A stretch of DNA of 20,394 nt, taken from positions 1 through 20,394 of IMG/VR virus record IMGVR_UViG_3300024344_000163; one strand, written 5' to 3'. This DNA comes from a virus. Below the pieces are notes generated by a model that worked only from the letters and a program-made list of their open reading frames with translations, had not been told where the DNA came from and searched no databases. The position numbers were made by a program, and so were the translations under genes. Shown here in pieces: positions 3,970 through 18,758 of this stretch (positions within the stretch are counted from its first letter, which is position 1; the number at the start of each line of letters is the position of its first letter).

Positions 3970-4797
3970 TTGGATATAAGGTATTTCGAAGGCGAGACGG
4001 GAATTGGTCCCTTTAGAAGGGATATTTTTGCAACGCCTATTTTTGTTGGTCATACCAAGACAGATATAGCTCAAAGGGCTGAAAAATTAGCACTAAAATT
4101 TAGGGATCAAATAAATGGCAGAGAGGGCTTAGTAGGCGAAGAATGGAGTAAGGGTGCCTCAAGCGAAGATAAAAAAGACTTTGATAAATATGGTGTCACC
4201 TCTTTTTATTCAAGAAATCTTGTCAGAGAAGAAGAGTGGCAAGACATTAAAACAGAATTAGAAGACATCTGTAAACACATGTTGGGTACAAGTGTAGATA
4301 AAAGTACGACTAGATCATTCAAGGGAAACGATTGGTATGAGTTTGTAGACAGCATGAAAATTAGCAATATGTGGACGACTTTATATCCAGAAGAGTCGTT
4401 TATTCCGATGCATATCCATTCGAATTACAGATGGAGTGCTGTTTTCTATGCTAAAGCTGAGAAGAATTGTGGAGATATTGTTTGGCAAGATCCTAGTTGG
4501 ATAACTAAAACAATGACTCAAGGTTCTAATCCAGCATTAAATCCGTATTACACCACTTATCAAATAGCACCAGAAACTGGGACTGTATTATTATTCCCTG
4601 CTTGGTTGCCACATAGAACAATACCAAATAAATCAGGTGAGGACAGGATTATTATTAGTTTTAATTTATTCTTTGAAGACGAAGAGATTTGTTTTAAACG
4701 TAACAACGACTCACCAGAAGAAAGTAATTTCCAACAAAACAAAGGTTGGGTTTTAAAAGCAGATAAGTCAACAAAGGAAGAAAATCATGATTCATGA
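3970..4797 (+). CDS. 2OG-Fe(II) oxygenase family protein (PF13759-like)
   Basis: A 275-aa protein. The frame opens after a stop at 3958 and contains no early ATG; TTG at 3970 is the most likely start (ATT at 3967 is possible). The core is a double-stranded beta-helix dioxygenase pattern: H148-x-H150 in MHIHSNYRWSAVFY, then GTVLLFPAWLPH with H215, then R226 in DRIIISFNLFF, which would bind 2-oxoglutarate. The second ligand is His where the classical motif has Asp/Glu, a pattern I associate with the phage 2OG-FeII_Oxy_5-type family. A role as a protein or small-molecule hydroxylase is inferred; the substrate is unknown. The next gene overlaps it by 11 nt, so the two are likely co-translated. 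Confidence 0.75.
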   Translation: MDIRYFEGETGIGPFRRDIFATPIFVGHTKTDIAQRAEKLALKFRDQINGREGLVGEEWSKGASSEDKKDFDKYGVTSFYSRNLVREEEWQDIKTELEDICKHMLGTSVDKSTTRSFKGNDWYEFVDSMKISNMWTTLYPEESFIPMHIHSNYRWSAVFYAKAEKNCGDIVWQDPSWITKTMTQGSNPALNPYYTTYQIAPETGTVLLFPAWLPHRTIPNKSGEDRIIISFNLFFEDEEICFKRNNDSPEESNFQQNKGWVLKADKSTKEENHDS

Positions 4798-5335
4798 TTA
4801 CGCTTACATCGACGACTTGTTGAGTTGGGAGGAATGTAAATATATTAGAAATTATGGACATCGTAAATGTAAGGAATCACTAGTCGAGGGTGCTCAAGTT
4901 CACGACTCAAGGCAATCTAAAAATTGCTTTATCCAAAGCAATGTGAAAAACAAAAAAATAAAAAGCATTATGGAAAAAGTTGTGCGAATGTATTTTTTTA
5001 TAGCTACTGACTTTTTTAAATTTCCAATGGCAATAATTGAGCCGATCCAGTACGCAGAATATGACAAAGGAATGTTTTACAAAAAGCATGCAGATAGTGG
5101 ATTGGAAATTGATCGGGATATTTCGGCATCTGTAATTTTATCAGACAGAAAAAAATATGAAGGAGGTGAATTGAAATTCGGTCATATAAAAAGTCCTATG
5201 GAAGAAAAACTTGGAAGGATGATTGTCTTTCCTTCTGCTATGCAACATGAGGTTCTACCAGTAGAGAAAGGCAGAAGATCGTCGTTAGTCCTCTGGGGAA
5301 GAAGGGATCTTGCAGACGACAAGAAAGAAGACTAA
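4787..5335 (+). CDS. prolyl-4-hydroxylase-type 2OG-Fe(II) dioxygenase
   Basis: A 182-aa protein with a strong AAGGAAG ribosome-binding site. The canonical iron site is intact: H101-x-D103 in YKKHADSG, then distal H154 in FPSAMQHEV, with R163/R164 ten residues on as the 2-oxoglutarate-binding Arg. GGELKF between them is the usual strand of PKHD/P4H proteins. Length fits the family (about 180-220 aa). It should hydroxylate Pro or another residue using O2 and 2-oxoglutarate (family knowledge). The target is unknown; phage structural proteins or host proteins are both possible. It is coupled to the oxygenase gene upstream. Confidence 0.85.
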   Translation: MIHDYAYIDDLLSWEECKYIRNYGHRKCKESLVEGAQVHDSRQSKNCFIQSNVKNKKIKSIMEKVVRMYFFIATDFFKFPMAIIEPIQYAEYDKGMFYKKHADSGLEIDRDISASVILSDRKKYEGGELKFGHIKSPMEEKLGRMIVFPSAMQHEVLPVEKGRRSSLVLWGRRDLADDKKED

Positions 5336-7143: not shown

Positions 7144-7289
7144 AAACTATCGAAAAACAACAACGCAAATTATTAAAGATAGCTGCTAAGGCGGCAGTTT
7201 GTACCTCAAGAAAAGAAGCCAAAAAACTATTAAAGAAAGAGTTAAAAGCTCAGAAGAAATTATCCAACGCTTATTTACTAAATGAATGA
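7140..7289 (+). CDS. lysine-rich mini-ORF without a canonical start
   Basis: An open frame of 49 codons, bounded upstream by a stop at 7137, encodes LKTIEKQQRKLLKIAAKAAV... and runs of Lys/Leu to a natural stop that overlaps the next start by 8 nt. Composition and coupling look like a real small basic protein, but there is no ATG, GTG or TTG near the beginning; the first codon is TTA, with ATC at 7149. It may use a rare start, be a decayed gene, or be chance. A -1 frame relation to the upstream gene exists, but no slippery sequence is evident. Confidence 0.3.
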   Translation, partial: LKTIEKQQRKLLKIAAKAAVCTSRKEAKKLLKKELKAQKKLSNAYLLNE

Positions 7290-7458
7290 ATTAGCAGACC
7301 CTGATGTAATTCAACTTGCATTTCTATTCCCTTTTATACCGATTATTGCAGTAGGAATCGTAACCTTTATACTGGGCTACGACCTCAGAGAGGACTCAGA
7401 AGATGACGATGACGACGATGATCGAGGGATGTTACAGCCAGCTTGGAACGGGTTGTAA
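7282..7458 (+). CDS. 58-aa single-pass membrane protein with acidic tail
   Basis: The ORF starts at ATG 7282 (MNELADPDVIQ), has one transmembrane segment of about 20 residues (LAFLFPFIPIIAVGIVTFIL), then LREDSE, seven Asp in a row, RG, and ends QPAWNGL. A single helix followed by a poly-Asp cytoplasmic or periplasmic tail is unusual. It is the last gene before the attachment region. A holin-like or regulatory membrane role is conceivable, but nothing in the sequence proves it. Confidence 0.55.
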   Translation: MNELADPDVIQLAFLFPFIPIIAVGIVTFILGYDLREDSEDDDDDDDRGMLQPAWNGL

Positions 7459-7469
7459 TATTTTCTCCA

Positions 7470-7501
7470 TGTCCAATTTGTCCAGTTCTCCATGTCCAGT
7501 G
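7470..7501 (+). repeat. left integrase arm-type repeats (three TGTCCA copies)
   Basis: Three direct copies start at 7470 (TGTCCAATT), 7479 (TGTCCAGTT) and 7493 (TGTCCAGTG). They lie 45-80 nt left of the tRNA-derived core and match the larger set to the right of the core. The geometry fits arm-binding sites of a heterobivalent tyrosine integrase. Confidence 0.6.
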
Positions 7502-7545
7502 ACAAAATGCGACTCAGTCATACCAAGGGATTTGGGGCATGCTCG

Positions 7546-7595
7546 AAGGGCTCATAACCCGAAGGTCGCAAGTTCAAATCTTGCCCCCGCCACCA
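7546..7595 (+). other. attP core: 3' part of tRNA-Met (CAT anticodon)
   Basis: This segment reads as the 3' half of an elongator-type tRNA-Met. The anticodon loop is CTCATAA (7551-7557, CAT at 7553-7555). The variable loop is AGGTC, the T-arm is GCAAG / TTCAAAT / CTTGC (7568-7584), and the acceptor 3' strand is CCCCGCC followed by A and an encoded CCA (7593-7595). The 5' half is absent: no GGCGGGG acceptor strand and no D-arm lie upstream. The anticodon stem is broken (AAGGG against CCCGA), so homology seems to begin at about 7548. It directly precedes the integrase, as expected for a phage attP that restores the host tRNA gene on integration. It is not a functional tRNA. Confidence 0.8.
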
Positions 7596-7603
7596 AATAC
7601 ATT

Positions 7604-7629
7604 AAGCCCGGTTGATACTGGGCTTTTTT
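7604..7629 (+). terminator. rho-independent terminator after tRNA fragment
   Basis: An 8-bp stem AAGCCCGG / CTGGGCTT (one G-T pair) with a TTGATA loop is followed by a T-run. It lies 8 nt past the tRNA CCA end and may be the host tRNA terminator carried along in the att identity segment. In the phage it would also shield int from upstream late transcription. Confidence 0.75.
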
Positions 7630-7640
7630 AGTGCTATAAA
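7612..7640 (+). promoter_or_regulatory. possible int promoter overlapping the terminator
   Basis: TTGATA (7612-7617) and TATAAA (7635-7640) are spaced by exactly 17 nt and point toward the integrase, giving a leader of about 150 nt. The -35 box is the loop of the terminator hairpin. The 60 nt after it hold a small hairpin (7642-7663) and nothing else recognised before the repeats. Confidence 0.4.
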
Positions 7641-7701
7641 GGGTTCTCAGAGACTAGAGAGCCATGGAAAATGCTTTGTCAGAGGTTGAAACAAGTGTTT
7701 T

Positions 7702-7803
7702 TAAGTGGACAAAAAATGTCCAGTTTTCATGTCCAGTTGGGTCAAATGTCCAGTTTTTGAATCTGGAAATGTCCAGTTTTTCAGGTCGGAATTTTGTCCA
7801 ATG
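7702..7803 (+). repeat. right integrase arm-type repeats (TGTCCAGTT array)
   Basis: Direct copies begin at 7717, 7730, 7747, 7770 (all TGTCCAGTT) and 7795 (TGTCCAATG, running into the int start codon). One inverted copy, TAAGTGGACA, lies at 7702-7711. Spacings are 13, 17, 23 and 25 nt. Placement between the tRNA core and int, with matching copies on the far side of the core, indicates P'-arm sites for the integrase. Integrase bound to the last copy would sit on its own start codon, which suggests autoregulation (inference). Confidence 0.65.
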
Positions 7804-9099
7804 ACTGTTTCAATCGATAATTACCTATCTGTCCAAAAAGAATTTACCTTTCGTTGGAAGTTATTTAAGAAGAGCGGAAGCCCATATATTTACGTCAGGG
7901 ATTCTTGGAAAGGTGCCGAAAGGATTTCCATCAAGCCTCTACGGATAGATGACGTTACTAATTGTCAAACAGCTTGGAGTATGGTCCAAGAAATTAAGGA
8001 CAAACATTGGTCGGATAATGTACAAAAAGTAGAGAAAGATTCGTATTGGAAATCTCATGAAGTTTCATTCAATGATTTTCTAACTAGTAAAAACAAAGCA
8101 TCAACAAATATTGAGTATTTCAGTCTTTGGAGAAATTTAAAAAGAAACGAAATTAAAAGAACATCTAAATCGATCCATAGATGGTTATGGGAAAAAACAT
8201 GTGGATCAAAACCATTTCAGAAAAGATTAGATTTTTTAAAACAAGTACAAATTTATGTTCGTAAACAGGAAGCAAAATATCCTACTTGGTTTACAGAAGA
8301 TGAATATCTAACGCAAAGAGGAATGCATAATGAGTATCGCAAGATGAGTGAAGGAAAGAAGAAGAAGAAAGAAATGCATCCACCTAGAGCAATTGTTTCT
8401 AAGAAACAAATGGAAGATTATCTCGATGCCAATATCGAAGAGTTTCCATGGCAGTGCTGGTGCCTAGCCATGATGATGAATTATGGATTACGCAACCATG
8501 AGCTTTGGTATGCCAAGCCACTTGAGAATCTATTTCTTCTTATCCCCGGAAGATTAACAAAATCACCTGAAGACCATAAGGTATGGCCTGCCTTTGCCGA
8601 TTGGGATAAGAGATACAATTTATTCCGTAATTTCAAGAAGCATCAGGGGCACTTAAGAAGCAAATGTAGACCGAAGATTACGAGTGCAACTCGAACTGGT
8701 GTGACTTATCAAGTAGAAGATAAAGCAGCTTATGACAATGGAATTGGTCAGAACAATTCTCAGCTTGGAGAATATATTACGAGAAATACTTTGGGGGCTA
8801 GTTACAAAACCAACGCAATAAGAGCATCCAAGTTAAGAACTGCATGCATGCCACCACTCTTAGCAAAATCAACTGATGGATTGGATCGGATGATCGAGGC
8901 ATTGCCATATGATTTACGCCACACTTGGGCTGTAACCATGCACTTAGAACCAGCCTTTGGAGATATTCCGATAGAACAATGTGCCGCAGCAATGGGACAT
9001 GGGGTCGGAGTTCACAAAGACAAATATCTCTTATGGGCTGATAATGAAAAACAAGAAGATCAATTTATAAAGAACTGGAAGCATCCATTCGCAGCCTAG
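7801..9099 (+). CDS. int: tyrosine recombinase (phage integrase)
   Basis: A 432-aa protein from ATG 7801. The catalytic set is visible: R231 in YGLRNHEL, a likely K254 in GRLTKS, Y370-D-L-R373-H374 (Tyr replaces the first His of HxxR, a substitution I recall from other cyanobacterial integrases), H400 in MGH, and nucleophile Y409 nine residues on in HKDKYLLW. Residues 1-60 form the likely arm-binding domain and about 85-190 the core-binding domain. A longer frame from GTG 7705 only translates the TGTCCAGTT repeats (KCPVF units) and is rejected. It should catalyse integration and, with a directionality factor, excision at a host tRNA-Met gene. Its stop abuts the stop of the converging gene. 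Confidence 0.92.
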   Translation: MTVSIDNYLSVQKEFTFRWKLFKKSGSPYIYVRDSWKGAERISIKPLRIDDVTNCQTAWSMVQEIKDKHWSDNVQKVEKDSYWKSHEVSFNDFLTSKNKASTNIEYFSLWRNLKRNEIKRTSKSIHRWLWEKTCGSKPFQKRLDFLKQVQIYVRKQEAKYPTWFTEDEYLTQRGMHNEYRKMSEGKKKKKEMHPPRAIVSKKQMEDYLDANIEEFPWQCWCLAMMMNYGLRNHELWYAKPLENLFLLIPGRLTKSPEDHKVWPAFADWDKRYNLFRNFKKHQGHLRSKCRPKITSATRTGVTYQVEDKAAYDNGIGQNNSQLGEYITRNTLGASYKTNAIRASKLRTACMPPLLAKSTDGLDRMIEALPYDLRHTWAVTMHLEPAFGDIPIEQCAAAMGHGVGVHKDKYLLWADNEKQEDQFIKNWKHPFAA

Positions 9100-9339
9100 T
9101 TATTGAAAGAAATAATCCCTGCGAACACATGAAGGTAATTGATCTATTTTGCTAACTGATATATCGTCGCCACACCAAAAACAATCTTGAATATCTCTGC
9201 ATGTATTCATGAATGAACGGTAGTAAAGCAGCTTTAGTACAAAGCTAAATATTGGGTTTTGCTGAGTCCTGATCATGAACTTGATATTCTCGGCCTTATT
9301 GATTAATGACCAAAGCCTAAATTCTTCATGTAGTTCCAT
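9100..9339 (-). CDS. hypothetical protein, third gene of xis cassette
   Basis: A 79-aa protein with a strong AGAGGA ribosome-binding site, overlapping the preceding gene by 14 nt. It has a helical N-terminal half and a Cys-containing C-terminal part (NTCRDIQDCFWCGDDISV...LPSCVRRDYFFQ) with four Cys that might bind metal. No family is recognised. Being co-transcribed with the excisionase-like gene and facing int tail to tail, it could take part in lysogeny control (inference from position). Confidence 0.6.
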   Translation of the reverse strand: MELHEEFRLWSLINKAENIKFMIRTQQNPIFSFVLKLLYYRSFMNTCRDIQDCFWCGDDISVSKIDQLPSCVRRDYFFQ

Positions 9340-9481
9340 TGTCTTCCTCTAAATCTTGTATTTCTTCTGGGAATTCCATAGCGAATTCCATGAACTGAAT
9401 GTCATCAAGCATGTGAAGGGGAATACCAGATTTAGAAAATTGCTTCTTATGCTTGTGGTCTTCGAAGTTTGAGCTGGTCAT
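9326..9481 (-). CDS. 51-aa hypothetical protein, second gene of xis cassette
   Basis: The ORF begins MTSSNFEDHKHKKQFSKSG and ends in an acidic stretch EFPEEIQDLEEDNGTT. Its ATG overlaps the stop of the excisionase-like gene as ATGA, and its own stop lies inside the next gene. This double overlap is good evidence that it is translated. No motif is recognised; it is a short acidic protein that could be a partner of the neighbouring DNA-binding protein. Confidence 0.6.
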   Translation of the reverse strand: MTSSNFEDHKHKKQFSKSGIPLHMLDDIQFMEFAMEFPEEIQDLEEDNGTT

Positions 9482-9693
9482 ACTTTCTTGATTCTTCGTC
9501 TGATGACATGGTCTGGAGAAGAAAGCATTTCATCCACAGCAGCTCGTCTCCAGATTTTTCCACTATTGGGGTTTAATGGGTCTTTGTATCTGTAATGAGT
9601 TCCTTTGGAAAAATATTTCTCATTGCGCTTTAGGGTTCTCGGACTGATACCCAAGTACTCGCTCATGGCGATATTCGAAATCCAAGGCTCCAT
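9478..9693 (-). CDS. excisionase-like winged helix-turn-helix protein
   Basis: A 71-aa basic protein from ATG 9693 with an AGG ribosome-binding site 6-8 nt upstream. Residues 7-27 (NIAMSEYLGISPRTLKRNEKY) form a helix-turn-helix. The following wing (GTHYRYKDPLNPNSGKIWRRAAVDEML) matches the pattern of cyanobacterial and phage excisionase/MerR-like wHTH proteins. It opens a three-gene leftward cassette converging on int, so it is the likely recombination directionality factor, or a repressor of the divergent promoter. A longer in-frame version starting at 9873 is a shadow of the Lys-rich gene on the other strand. Confidence 0.7.
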   Translation of the reverse strand: MEPWISNIAMSEYLGISPRTLKRNEKYFSKGTHYRYKDPLNPNSGKIWRRAAVDEMLSSPDHVIRRRIKKV

Positions 9694-9774
9694 GTGACCT
9701 AACCTGACGTGTGTTGTTAGTGTATGGCTTATCTTGCAACGTGCAACCTTCTTAATATATAAGTGTCTTGCAAA
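9694..9774. promoter_or_regulatory. divergent control region between xis cassette and rightward operon
   Basis: It contains the inverted repeat TTGCA-ACG-TGCAA (9734-9746) and two direct CTTGCAA copies (9733-9739 and 9767-9773). Leftward, TTGCAC and TACACT are spaced by 16 nt, a fair sigma70 promoter for the excisionase-like gene. Rightward, TTGCAA (9734-9739) and TATATA (9756-9761) are spaced by 16 nt. The repeats overlap both promoters, which suits an operator that switches between them. All assignments are from motif reading. Confidence 0.4.
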
Positions 9775-10257
9775 ATGATGATGACTGAAGTCGAAGAAAA
9801 AAAGAAACTCACAGAAGAGGAAAAGAAGAAAGCAGAAGCTGCTAAGAAAAAGAAGGAGAAAAAGGAAGAACACGACGAACCTCTGTGGCAGGAGGTTTTA
9901 ACGGCTAGTCTGAAAGTAGGTATTCTTGGGTGGTCCGTACTAATTCTCACTCTTTCATATTGCAGTCTTCCAGAAAAGTTGACGTTTGGTACGACAGTTA
10001 TCGAAATCCCAGAGCAAGGAAATATTGATCCAACTTTCCCGGCAAGTTTGCTCGGCGGAATCCTCTCATCGCTAGGGATTGCGACGGCTACTGCTAAGAA
10101 GAATGGCAATGGAAATGGTGGTGGTTTAACAGAAGAAAAGTTAATGAAAATACTTGCCACGATGAATAATAATGAGCAAGTTATTAGAGTTCAAACCCCA
10201 ATCCACATTGTTGGCGGAGAGTTACTAAAGTCAGAAAAGACTAGTAAGGATAGTTAA
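9775..10257 (+). CDS. Lys/Glu-rich membrane protein, possible holin-like
   Basis: A 160-aa protein. Three ATG codons in a row (9775, 9778, 9781) are possible starts and no clear ribosome-binding site is seen. Residues 5-40 are a highly charged Lys/Glu helix. A transmembrane segment follows (VGILGWSVLILTLSYCSL), then a second hydrophobic stretch (FPASLLGGILSSLGIATATA), an Asn/Gly linker and a soluble tail. The topology and the following small coiled-coil membrane protein (1-nt TAATG overlap) recall a phage holin or membrane-remodelling pair, but the family is not recognised. Confidence 0.6.
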   Translation: MMMTEVEEKKKLTEEEKKKAEAAKKKKEKKEEHDEPLWQEVLTASLKVGILGWSVLILTLSYCSLPEKLTFGTTVIEIPEQGNIDPTFPASLLGGILSSLGIATATAKKNGNGNGGGLTEEKLMKILATMNNNEQVIRVQTPIHIVGGELLKSEKTSKDS

Positions 10258-15088: not shown

Positions 15089-15234
15089 TGAATTGCTGGC
15101 ACTGTAATACTGAATTGATTTGGGGTAGTGACTCAGATCTCCCAATTCCTTCTGAAGAATTCGATTTCATAACCAATTTAAGCTGTCCTAAATGTGAATC
15201 AGAAGTAGAGGTTTATCACAGAAAAACAAATTGA
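15088..15234 (+). CDS. zinc-ribbon mini-protein (CxxC...CxxC)
   Basis: A 48-aa protein starting MNCWHCNTELIWGSDSD, with C3-x-x-C6 and C33-x-x-C36 (LSCPKCESEVEVY). This is a minimal zinc ribbon of a type I recall in marine phages (CWHC.TELIWG...NLSCP.C). Zinc binding is predicted from the four Cys; the partner is unknown, and nucleic-acid or protein binding are both possible. The longer in-frame ORF from 15031 reads through the micropeptide gene and is rejected. It overlaps genes on both sides by 1-4 nt. Confidence 0.75.
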   Translation: MNCWHCNTELIWGSDSDLPIPSEEFDFITNLSCPKCESEVEVYHRKTN

Positions 15235-15806
15235 TAGATGTTCCTTTTATTCATGATTTTTATTTAGAAAGTTTTCCTTCTAATAAAGATAAACTTATAG
15301 ATTTTATTGAAAACGGAGAAGAAGATAACACTCAGGATCTCAGTTGGACTGATCTATGTTCTCTTGAAGTACAAGGGATTACAGGTGACAATCCCTTTAA
15401 TTATCTAGCTCCAGTATTGAAAGAGTTTATTGGTGATTTAGGTCTAGATATTTCAAAAATAAATCTTCGCCTGATGGGCATATGGCGTAACACATATCGA
15501 AGAGGTGATTTTCAAGAAGTACATGATCATAATTATGATGATATCTCTGGAGTCATTTTTCTGACTGATGAACAAGAAGATGATGGTAAATTTTATTTTT
15601 TAAACAAAAGTGGAAACGAGATTCCTTTTTCTTGGGACAAACTAAGAAAAGATAATGAGAGGAAGATTCACGCACGTAGGCATTACATAAAAGCCGAGAG
15701 AGGCAAAGTAATTCTATTTCCTTCATACCTCCAACATGGAGTCACTGTTCACAAATCAGATAATCCAAGAAGAACAGCAGCGTTTAATCTTCGGTTTTTA
15801 GAGTGA
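15231..15806 (+). CDS. 2OG-Fe(II) oxygenase-like protein (PF13759-like)
   Basis: A 191-aa protein with a TTG start overlapping the previous stop (TTGA). Core motifs: H98-D-H100 in VHDHNYDDISGVIFL, GKVILFPSYLQH with H169, and R180/R181 in NPRRTAAFNLRF. This is the same pattern as the gene at 3970-4797 but shorter. The second ligand is again His rather than Asp. Hydroxylation of an unknown substrate is the family expectation. Its end overlaps the converging oxygenase-like gene by 23 nt. Confidence 0.75.
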   Translation: MIDVPFIHDFYLESFPSNKDKLIDFIENGEEDNTQDLSWTDLCSLEVQGITGDNPFNYLAPVLKEFIGDLGLDISKINLRLMGIWRNTYRRGDFQEVHDHNYDDISGVIFLTDEQEDDGKFYFLNKSGNEIPFSWDKLRKDNERKIHARRHYIKAERGKVILFPSYLQHGVTVHKSDNPRRTAAFNLRFLE

Positions 15807-16392
15807 CCAATTTATCTATTACTCCTTCGGGGATAGTTTTGTATGCTTTTTCACTAAACATATCAAAGGCAATAGTTATTCTTTCGCTATCTCCGTTGTA
15901 TTGATCAGTCCAGTGAGTTGTACCACTATTGAAGAAATGAAAATTGCCGGGAATATTTAATAGTTTTTCATCCTTGATAAATGTTCTGTAGTAAGTAGAA
16001 GTTGAACCATCGGCTTTAACAGTCAAGTGTCCACACAGAGAATCAAGAGGATCAACAATACCTCTGAAGTGTGCGTGGGGTTTTATTTGCTCACCCTTTC
16101 TTAGAACATTGGCCCAGCATTTGACATGTAATTGTTTAATCTTGGTCTCAGTGTAATTTTGATAGCCTTTTAGAATCCATTTACGTAAGGGCTCAGCCTC
16201 TTGCCAATTCAATACGTTGTACCAGAAATATCTAGAAGTTAGAGAGTTAGGACTTAAGCCAGTTCCACTGTTTCCATCATTGCCATCGTATGAAGTATTT
16301 GGAAATTTCTCGATAATTACTGGCTCTTCTTTAAGTATTTTCTGCTCCAGCGGATCGCAGTTAATGTCACTTTCGATAACAATTGTTTTCAT
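15784..16392 (-). CDS. 2OG-Fe(II) oxygenase-like protein partnered with halogenase
   Basis: A 202-aa protein from ATG 16392, which overlaps the halogenase stop as TAATG; the longer frame from 16416 lies inside the halogenase. Motifs: H106-x-H108 in IKPHAHFRG, GNFHFFNSGTTHW with H160, and R171 in SERITIAFDMF. The layout fits a cupin-fold Fe(II)/2OG enzyme, though the first half is not recognisable. Strict coupling to the halogenase-like gene suggests that both modify the same substrate, for example a halogenated or hydroxylated aromatic side chain (inference). Confidence 0.65.
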   Translation of the reverse strand: MKTIVIESDINCDPLEQKILKEEPVIIEKFPNTSYDGNDGNSGTGLSPNSLTSRYFWYNVLNWQEAEPLRKWILKGYQNYTETKIKQLHVKCWANVLRKGEQIKPHAHFRGIVDPLDSLCGHLTVKADGSTSTYYRTFIKDEKLLNIPGNFHFFNSGTTHWTDQYNGDSERITIAFDMFSEKAYKTIPEGVIDKLVTLKTED

Positions 16393-17528
16393 TATTTCTT
16401 CACTCCATCCATCCAATATTTGATACTCGTTGGAGCCCAGCAGCCGTACTCAGGTAATCGACCTTGCTGTTCAAAGGTCTTAACAACTGATATAGGTAAC
16501 GGCTCTAGGGTTTGAGTTAACTCATTAAATTTAGGGTCTATCTTTGTCCGTAGATTTCTTGCATGTTTCCAGAATTTAGTTTCAAATTTAGAACCGTTCT
16601 GATAATGCCAAAGAATAAATCTTTCTATCTCATGGATCTTATTATGAATCCACTTAGTTAAAGGTTCTGTTTTATTTTGTGGTCTAATTATTTGATCAAA
16701 GCATTGAACCACCCATTCCGTATGTATCCAACAAGCTGTTGCCTCTAAAGGTTCCAAGAAGTAAAGACGATTTCCATTAAGAAATACTCGCTTATCAATA
16801 ACAGGATTCTTTGCTATGTAGCTTTTAAATTCAAGATGACCTGTTATGTACGCATCAAATTGATCCTGTAAATTATGGATTGCTTCTTTTTTAGTAGTTA
16901 TATCTTTGTTGTATAAATAACCTAAAGCTCCTTGACTGCTTGGCAGGTCTGGTTTTGCAGGTAACACAAAACTCCAACCGTCAGAAGTTGCAACAGCTCT
17001 GGTATAAGAGAGAATTGATGTGTCCCATTTTGGCTTAGCTAGTAGACAAGAGTTAACTGGCGTAATCAGAGGTGAGTAATCGTCATCATCTTTAGGTCTT
17101 CCTCTGCAATCAAATATATAGTCAGCATCAACGTCAGAATAGTTATCTACGTTTTGGTGAATAATATTGAATTGTCCAGACTTAACTACTATTTCCTGTA
17201 ATTTTTTTGGGAAAAAATGCATCCCAACATTCTTAGGGGGAAACGGATGAAAGATTTCTTTCTTATGCCCCCAACCTTCGTAAAGGATTCCTGTCTTTAT
17301 GGTTGCGTCAATTTGATTCTTATACCAATTGAATTCTTCGTTTAAAACATTCCAAAGCAAATGTGGTTGGTGAGGAAAGGTAGCTTGACCAACTTTTTCA
17401 GCAGGAGTATTGGGGTCATAGATAATCGAAATCTCTATTTCAAGACCTGTGTCTTTAGCAAGATCACCTAGTTGAAGTGCTGTAAAACAACCTGCATTCC
17501 CAGCACCAATTACTGCTACTTTGATCAT
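16392..17528 (-). CDS. flavin-dependent tryptophan-halogenase-like protein
   Basis: A 378-aa protein. The N-terminal FAD motif GAGNAG (residues 8-13, GxGxxG) is followed by EKVGQATFP (44-52), the equivalent of the halogenase GxGEATxP segment. IDATIKTGILYEGW (73-86) places K78 where PrnA/RebH have the catalytic Lys79. The WxWxIP signature is altered to GWSFVLP (184-190). Bacterial Trp halogenases are about 500-530 aa, so this is a short phage-type member, and phage homologues are known in marine cyanophages. It might halogenate Trp or a peptide using FADH2, or be a halogenase-fold monooxygenase. It is coupled to genes on both sides by 1-nt overlaps. Confidence 0.8.
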   Translation of the reverse strand: MIKVAVIGAGNAGCFTALQLGDLAKDTGLEIEISIIYDPNTPAEKVGQATFPHQPHLLWNVLNEEFNWYKNQIDATIKTGILYEGWGHKKEIFHPFPPKNVGMHFFPKKLQEIVVKSGQFNIIHQNVDNYSDVDADYIFDCRGRPKDDDDYSPLITPVNSCLLAKPKWDTSILSYTRAVATSDGWSFVLPAKPDLPSSQGALGYLYNKDITTKKEAIHNLQDQFDAYITGHLEFKSYIAKNPVIDKRVFLNGNRLYFLEPLEATACWIHTEWVVQCFDQIIRPQNKTEPLTKWIHNKIHEIERFILWHYQNGSKFETKFWKHARNLRTKIDPKFNELTQTLEPLPISVVKTFEQQGRLPEYGCWAPTSIKYWMDGVKK

Positions 17529-18294: not shown

Positions 18295-18535
18295 AAAGTC
18301 TGCATTAGTCAGAAAGCACTTAGCTAGAGCACGGAGAGCTAATCACCATGCACAGAACTATGGTGGAAGTACAGGCGGTAGGAAGAGTATTGATCGTGGA
18401 TCTGGTATCAGCGTATTGAATAGAAGATCTGCTGAGCAAGCTGCGGAGAGTCAAGTATTTAAAGATGATCTAGATCAATACGGTGCAAGGCGAGAAGCAT
18501 GGGAAGCAAGAAAGTTGCCTTCTCTAGGCACTTAA
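18278..18535 (+). CDS. hypothetical basic protein
   Basis: An 85-aa protein from ATG with GGAG at proper spacing inside the preceding gene. Its N-terminus is rich in Arg/Lys/His (KKSALVRKHLARARRANHHAQN), followed by a Gly/Ser linker and a charged helix. It could bind nucleic acid or the virion interior, but no family is recognised. Confidence 0.6.
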   Translation: MGLRNKKSALVRKHLARARRANHHAQNYGGSTGGRKSIDRGSGISVLNRRSAEQAAESQVFKDDLDQYGARREAWEARKLPSLGT

Positions 18536-18548
18536 CCAAATAACAAAA

Positions 18549-18758
18549 ATGAAAAAACTTTTACTAGTGTTGCCAATCCTTCTTGCCGGATGTGGTCTTG
18601 GAATGAATAACGGAGGAGGAGGTGGTGGTCGAGGATTAGACGCTTACTCTTTCATGAATACAGGTAGTGCAGACTCATACACATGCGAAGAAGTTGGAGA
18701 CCAGAGAGAATCATATTGTGCTACCGGCGAACATCCGAACTTGTGCAATTGTTCATGA
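18549..18758 (+). CDS. small phage lipoprotein
   Basis: A 69-aa protein. MKKLLLVLPILLAGCG is a lipoprotein signal peptide with lipobox LAGC (lipidated Cys15). A Gly-rich linker and a tail with four Cys (YTCEEV, SYCATG, NLCNCS) follow. Outer-membrane or periplasmic anchoring is predicted. Small lipoproteins beside a tiny membrane peptide recall o-spanin/i-spanin pairs of lysis cassettes, but the Cys-rich tail is not typical of spanins. There is no Shine-Dalgarno, only an A-rich leader. Confidence 0.65.
   Translation: MKKLLLVLPILLAGCGLGMNNGGGGGGRGLDAYSFMNTGSADSYTCEEVGDQRESYCATGEHPNLCNCS

Follow-up and report, generated by a model that had tools for sequence, protein, structure and literature searches.

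The stretch of DNA analysed here, IMG/VR virus contig IMGVR_UViG_3300024344_000163 (hereafter the window, 20,394 bp and thus the entire contig), carries a discrete cassette at positions 7459-9762 in which P-arm repeats, the 3' half of a tRNA-Met, a terminator, P'-arm repeats, a tyrosine integrase gene (int) and a converging excisionase-like gene follow each other. We interpret it, with a probability of around 85%, as a module for site-specific integration in a temperate-type cyanophage from the lineage of Synechococcus phage S-EIV1. A partial tRNA lies next to int and is flanked by arm sites, as expected of the attachment site (attP) of a tRNA-integrating temperate phage. In the mechanism that we propose, the integrase would bind the TGTCCAGT arm repeats via its N-terminal domain and bring the phage core to the initiator tRNA-Met gene of the host, where strands would be exchanged over the seven bases of the anticodon loop (CTCATAA). 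The insertion would join the 5' half of the host gene to a phage-supplied 3' half with its CCA and terminator, the essential tRNA would stay functional, and int would come to lie just inside the left junction (attL). The core would be held fixed across relatives by the host tRNA, and the converging winged helix-turn-helix (HTH) protein would serve as the excision factor.

Anatomy of the cassette

That these genes and sites form one unit is evident from relatives that have or lack them. In the S-EIV1-like modules with enough flanking DNA, the order is a small membrane-type gene (as at 7282 of the window), attP, int, two small open reading frames (ORFs), the excisionase-like gene and a conserved phage gene (as at 9763), and in about ten distinct S-EIV1-like contigs the cassette sits between the same neighbour genes. 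In the integrase-less sibling G011, it is missing as a block, with the 7282-type gene (18391-18564) and the 9763 homolog (at 18752) separated by one small zinc-ribbon gene. This presence and absence between the same neighbours marks 7459-9693 as a real unit, and these are the limits that an earlier note, made from the letters of the window alone, had drawn for an integration module. The converging excisionase-like cassette of that note is borne out for the winged-HTH gene, though two additional small ORFs lie between it and int (Table 1).

The attP core at 7548-7595 (GGGCTCATAACCCGAAGGTCGCAAGTTCAAATCTTGCCCCCGCCACCA) spans the anticodon loop and stem region through the CCA and shows a CAT anticodon, the GGG/CCC anticodon stem of initiator tRNAs and a T arm, just as expected of the 3' tRNA-Met half reported before; the same anticodon arm is found in complete initiator tRNAs of other records. 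A complete tRNA-Met, named by the earlier note as evidence against an attP, was not found in the window by ARAGORN, and the Rfam tRNA model reached 18.5 bits against a cut-off of 29. The tRNA half is present in ca. 30 records of S-EIV1-like and MED4-117-like phages, the latter being siphoviruses that encode a tape-measure protein and a terminase and whose DNA weakly matches MED4-117 and MED4-184. Identity to the tRNA sets in precisely at the first base of CTCATAA, the anticodon loop, in five S-EIV1-like modules (L128, L132, L133, L134 and G007), which makes this heptamer the probable crossover region, of the size and at the place expected of a tyrosine-recombinase overlap. The terminator hairpin behind the core varies in sequence but is kept in structure and place among relatives and in phage P-SS2. 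Further downstream, the TTTTTTAGTGCTATAAAGGG portion of the 7630-7650 element is exact in nine records whose integrases are down to 34% identical to that of the window, and AGTGCTATAAAGGG within the same element is strictly conserved among many S-EIV1-like modules despite divergent integrases. Upstream, GTCATACCAA lies 34 bp before the anticodon loop in the window, L005, L128 and L134 and, with one mismatch, in L133 and G007, possibly as a site for a host factor or Xis.

Arm repeats flank the core on both sides as previously noticed, with three copies on the left and five direct plus one inverted on the right. All six exact copies of TGTCCAGT in the 20 kb of the window (at 7479, 7493, 7717, 7730, 7747 and 7770) are confined to these 330 bases, together with one-mismatch copies at 7470 and 7795 and the inverted copy at 7704. 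The 7-mer enrichment in this attP is 6, compared to a maximum of 4 in shuffled sequences.

The integrase ORF extends over 7705-9099 with a likely start at the ATG at 7801, the first 32 "residues" of the long frame being arm repeats. Its product has no match in Pfam, PHROGs or PDB sequence profiles; for PF00589, the relative encoded by G007 gives an E-value of 4.6e-5, below the cut-off, and one of 13 family members an E-value of 0.002. The top match of its predicted fold is lambda Int (1z1g; E 2e-6, probability 1.00), with a model pLDDT of only 64. Residues R231, K254, R373, H400 and Y409 do not vary among 13 relatives, so that the catalytic residues are intact as claimed before with the exception of the HxxR histidine, which is replaced by Y370 (YxxR) in all 13. 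By predicted fold and active site, the protein thus qualifies as a putative tyrosine recombinase. P-SS2 is the sole named phage with a matching integrase (26% identity), a search of plasmids gave no relative, and a scan of genome contigs matched only PAJN01000013.1 (hereafter PAJN). No integrase of this family was found in the siblings G011, G016 and S-EIV1. Different tyrosine recombinases occur in other genomes of the S-EIV1 lineage, two of them in G024 (C1:27668-30486) and one of 571 amino acids in G026 (C1:21616-22194) and G028 (C1:2280-2855), indicating that this lineage has used several integrases.

The excisionase-like gene at 9478-9693 encodes a winged-HTH protein of 72 residues on the minus strand, convergent with int. 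A profile built from its relatives detects a homolog close to int in most modules whose flank is long enough, and homologs in relatives likewise converge on int; within the stretches read, none was found in the MED4-117-like group. Relatives match Pfam DUF1233 ("putative excisionase") and HTH_17, and structural neighbours comprise the Klebsiella pneumoniae putative excisionase 2kvv, Xis of phage Pukovnik and RdfS, at fair to high probability and with E-values that are weak because the protein is short. We therefore consider it a likely excision factor that would set the direction of recombination. S-EIV1 has kept a weak relative of this gene without int. The same profile detects gp100 of P-SS2 (L101, 89040-89246; E 2.8e-16), a protein annotated as hypothetical whose gene converges on the P-SS2 int and overlaps its end. 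An excisionase had been judged absent from P-SS2 and possibly supplied by the host (Sullivan 2009, PMC2784084), and gp100 is a candidate for this supposedly missing factor.

Phage lineage of the window

The window is a fragment without terminase or head genes and was placed in the S-EIV1 lineage by its synteny with PAJN, to which it is 93.6% identical over 5.85 kb. PAJN (G005:C13) is a 39.6-kb cyanophage contig with psbA, terminase and integrase that is filed, presumably through misbinning, in a metagenome-assembled genome of "Euryarchaeota archaeon". An even larger relative, G007 (IMG/VR 3300030376_006394), is a single contig of 85,211 bp that is probably near-complete, weak evidence suggesting that its ends may fall within one gene, and has the same cassette in mid-genome at 41.3-42.9 kb. 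Both combine the cassette with genes for a terminase, a 739-residue portal-like protein, a capsid-like protein, tail-type proteins and a lysozyme as well as the photosynthesis gene psbA (93% identical between the two). Terminase and head genes related to those of S-EIV1 are present in G007, G002 and PAJN, with identities to S-EIV1 of 49% to 52% for the terminase, 45% to 49% for the portal-like protein and 70% for the capsid-like protein; among phage records other than S-EIV1, the portal-like protein has no match. With 279 terminase relatives in IMG/VR, the S-EIV1-like lineage is widespread, and earlier work attributed ca. 3% of the marine cyanophage signal to the S-EIV1 group and listed a psbA-bearing singleton separately (Nishimura 2017, PMC5332604). 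No psbA was detected in the other module-bearing fragments tested, in a search that had no positive control and on fragments that are incomplete.

These data bear on two other identities for the carrier of the cassette. The earlier note had described a T4-like-cyanophage neighbourhood and suspected an integrating relative of these phages, and the DIRDIRV and DVGGVSA families encoded in the window do occur in 201 and 411 phage records, respectively, most of them T4-like cyanophages. Nevertheless, the relatives have head and packaging genes that match S-EIV1, not T4-type counterparts, and the portal-like protein has its only phage match there, leaving a T4-like cyanophage with an acquired integration module at a practically negligible probability; the two families are shared accessory genes. 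Scarcely more credible is an integrative element or satellite resembling tycheposons or phage-inducible chromosomal islands (PICIs), even though islands and elements of picocyanobacteria typically have a tyrosine integrase directed at a tRNA (PMC10187409 and the literature it cites). For the relatives of the window, this reading is refuted by the 85-kb contig G007, where the cassette occurs alongside psbA and genes for a terminase, a lysozyme and portal-like and capsid-like proteins, and by the same set in PAJN, the sister of the window. The earlier proposal of an attP inside a phage genome rather than at an island end has thereby held up, and the contrary picture of contig ends with host genes and no virion core genes did not appear.

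Arm repeats and the integrase N-terminal domain

Beyond TGTCCAGT, related modules have their own lineage-specific arm repeats, among them TGTACACT, TGTCCGCT, GGCCCCGT, GGCCCACT, ATTCCCCT, TTCTACTC, GGCAGACT, TTACCCCC and ATCAACAG, and the MED4-117-like siphoviruses alone contribute six further arm types on similar backbones. Each repeat is present in several copies in the attP it belongs to, against mostly zero to two copies in the attP sites of other modules, with exceptions being the closely related GGCCCCGT/GGCCCACT pair and L133, in which the 7-mer enrichment does not exceed that of shuffled sequences. At the level of sequence, the arm type follows the N-terminal domain of the integrase (residues 1-50) and not its catalytic body. 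Pairs with the same arms are 87% to 100% identical in this domain even where the bodies share only 47% to 52% (L284 compared to L282, L291 and L294), while pairs with different arms do not exceed 87% even where the bodies are 95% to 99% identical. For L281 and L287, which differ in their arms, the N-terminus is 52% and the body 96% identical, and for L133 and L134, which likewise differ, the values are 85% and 99%. The latter pair differs at 8 of 56 N-terminal positions but at 3 of 365 elsewhere (p = 7e-6) and diverges in the P' arm and N-terminus within surroundings that are mostly 85% to 100% identical, whereas L113 and L114, of identical arm type, show no such dip. A permutation of labels after regressing out body identity gave p = 0.0002, the floor of the test, and is indicative only given that the compared sequences share ancestry.

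Arm repeats and arm-binding domain thus change jointly and independently of the body, probably by recombination, which suggests that what these phages exchange is the part responsible for recognising their own DNA, with the host target staying fixed. More tentatively, and at somewhat less than even odds, many marine cyanophages with unrelated backbones could share the initiator tRNA-Met address and avoid mutual interference through the exchange of arm repeats and arm-binding domain as one linked cassette. If so, the arm type would act as a private key, and the integrase of a resident phage could neither integrate nor excise a competing phage with the same attB. We found no description of wholesale arm-type exchange at such a scale in searchable papers, and these modules offer a large natural experiment in which arm-site specificity changes and the core is constant.

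Integrated state, use and known systems

Several points weigh against a functional module in a temperate phage. No attL, attR or host junction was read, and the intact sites in S-EIV1-like and MED4-117-like contigs are all attP halves; a search with the full tRNA gave 120 stretches from many bacteria, with no cyanobacterial attL among those inspected. No repressor was identified, the confidence of the integrase model is modest, the arm comparison draws on related sequences, and evidence for proviruses comes from the trimming of records and for their host from neighbouring identifiers. Concerning the repressor, an HTH-like protein (60% identity between G007:C1:24187-24966 and G002:36882-37688) is encoded on the opposite strand beside a VapE-type primase and is a possible candidate; it also occurs in some relatives without this integrase. 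G033 was considered as an attL and rejected, as its tRNA, which lies between the excisionase-like gene and int, is complete and a different one of Met(CAT) type. In the 106-kb record 2910013374_000001 of IMG/VR (L277:16870-18687), an excisionase-like gene, a complete tRNA of Met(CAT) type and a distantly related integrase follow consecutively, possibly as another att arrangement.

Three single-genome records (2716884763, 2716884731 and 2667527327) start exactly at the integrase ATG, and two of them, the S-EIV1-like 2716884763 (56 kb) and the siphovirus-like region 2716884731 (42 kb), also finish at a stop codon. Provirus callers trim at gene edges where host DNA adjoins, and metagenomic contigs, unlike these records, run through attP. 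The adjacent IMG identifiers are those of the Prochlorococcus single cells AG-412 and AG-355 (PMC6581173). This is suggestive, though not proof, of three proviruses with Prochlorococcus as the probable host, a reading weakened by the occurrence of virocells in that single-cell collection (PMC6122165).

It is also conceivable, though unlikely, that a mostly lytic lineage retains the module but rarely or never uses it, with the tRNA half and int being relics or serving other genome recombination. All metagenomic copies being attP halves would fit, as would the lack of an integrase of this family in G011, G016 and S-EIV1 and the retention of an excisionase-like relative without int in S-EIV1, reminiscent of TM4 among the Cluster K phages (PMC3203893). 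Disuse is harder to reconcile with the exact ends of the three single-cell records at int and with open integrase frames, invariant catalytic residues and matched pairs of arms and N-termini across divergent genomes, which argue for continued selection for function.

The closest known system is that of P-SS2 (Sullivan 2009, PMC2784084), which has the same initiator tRNA-Met half (36 bp exact to the host) followed by a terminator, a tyrosine integrase on the same strand and the converging gp100, so that the idea of the earlier note was partly known already. It differs in its siphovirus backbone without photosynthesis genes, its merely 26% identical integrase and its authors' verdict that an excisionase is absent. 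S-EIV1 (KJ410740) shares terminase, portal-like, capsid-like and other head genes, but it is a freshwater isolate in which no match to this integrase, attP or psbA and only the weak excisionase-like relative were found. Cluster K mycobacteriophages (Pope 2011, PMC3203893) have an attP 5' of a tyrosine integrase with a terminator between core and P' arms, a MerR-like Xis elsewhere, arm sites that vary slightly with N-terminal changes and, in TM4, a lost cassette with Xis kept; they differ in their tmRNA target and in arms that diverge at single positions, where the present modules exchange whole arm types together with the N-terminal domain. Cyanophage contigs described previously combine psbA, an integrase and a partial tRNA in one phage (Mizuno 2013, PMC3861242), though with a tRNA-Leu attP, in different phages and without arm analysis. 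Cluster158946 (PMC10187409), compared here by its description, is likewise a marine picocyanobacterial tyrosine integrase missed by profiles, modelled on lambda Int (1Z1B, 13% identity), but lies next to tRNA-Phe or tRNA-Cys in host islands.

A phage module for tRNA integration is an ordinary kind of system, though we found no earlier report for the S-EIV1 lineage; it comes with an unusually clear record of arm-specificity exchange and, for P-SS2, with a candidate excision factor. In Prochlorococcus and marine Synechococcus, lysogeny has been suspected for a long time and seen only rarely, and it now has a named target in the initiator tRNA-Met, exact probe sequences for attL and attR (e.g., AAGCCC..GGGCTTTTTTAGTGCTATAAAGGG 3' of an intact tRNA-Met) and a widespread uncultured lineage in which to look. 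The co-occurrence of psbA and integrase in one phage genome is also relevant to the proposed absence of psbA from lysogenic cyanosiphoviruses (PMC6157547).

Table 1. Coordinates of the cassette and its bordering genes in the window.
Feature	Position	Strand	Remarks
Small membrane-type gene, conserved, always 5' of cassette	7282-7458	+	Homolog in all S-EIV1-like modules having that flank
P-arm, three TGTCCA(G/A)T repeats	7470-7500	+	
GTCATACCAA element	7517-7526	+	Kept 34 bp 5' of anticodon loop in several divergent modules
attP core, initiator tRNA-Met 3' half	7548-7595	+	Exact or near-exact in ~30 modules
CTCATAA, anticodon loop, probable 7-bp crossover region	7551-7557	+	
Intrinsic terminator hairpin	7604-7625	+	9-bp stem, then T run
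AGTGCTATAAAGGGTTCTCAG, conserved element 3' of terminator	7630-7650	+	
P'-arm, TGTCCA(G/A)T repeats (five direct, one inverted)	7704-7802	+	Last repeat overlaps int start codon
Putative tyrosine integrase, 432 aa	7801-9099	+	N-terminal arm-binding domain ~1-50; R231 K254 R373 H400 Y409
Conserved small ORF, 79 aa	9100-9339	-	49-75% identity across related modules
Conserved small ORF, 51 aa	9326-9481	-	65-78% identity across related modules
Excisionase-like winged-HTH protein, candidate recombination directionality factor	9478-9693	-	Converges on int
Conserved phage gene at right cassette border	9763-10257	+	phrog_2714; syntenic in S-EIV1-like modules and G011

Elsewhere in the window (3970-5332 and 15231-17528), we observed four 2OG-Fe(II) oxygenase-like genes and one tryptophan-halogenase-like gene.

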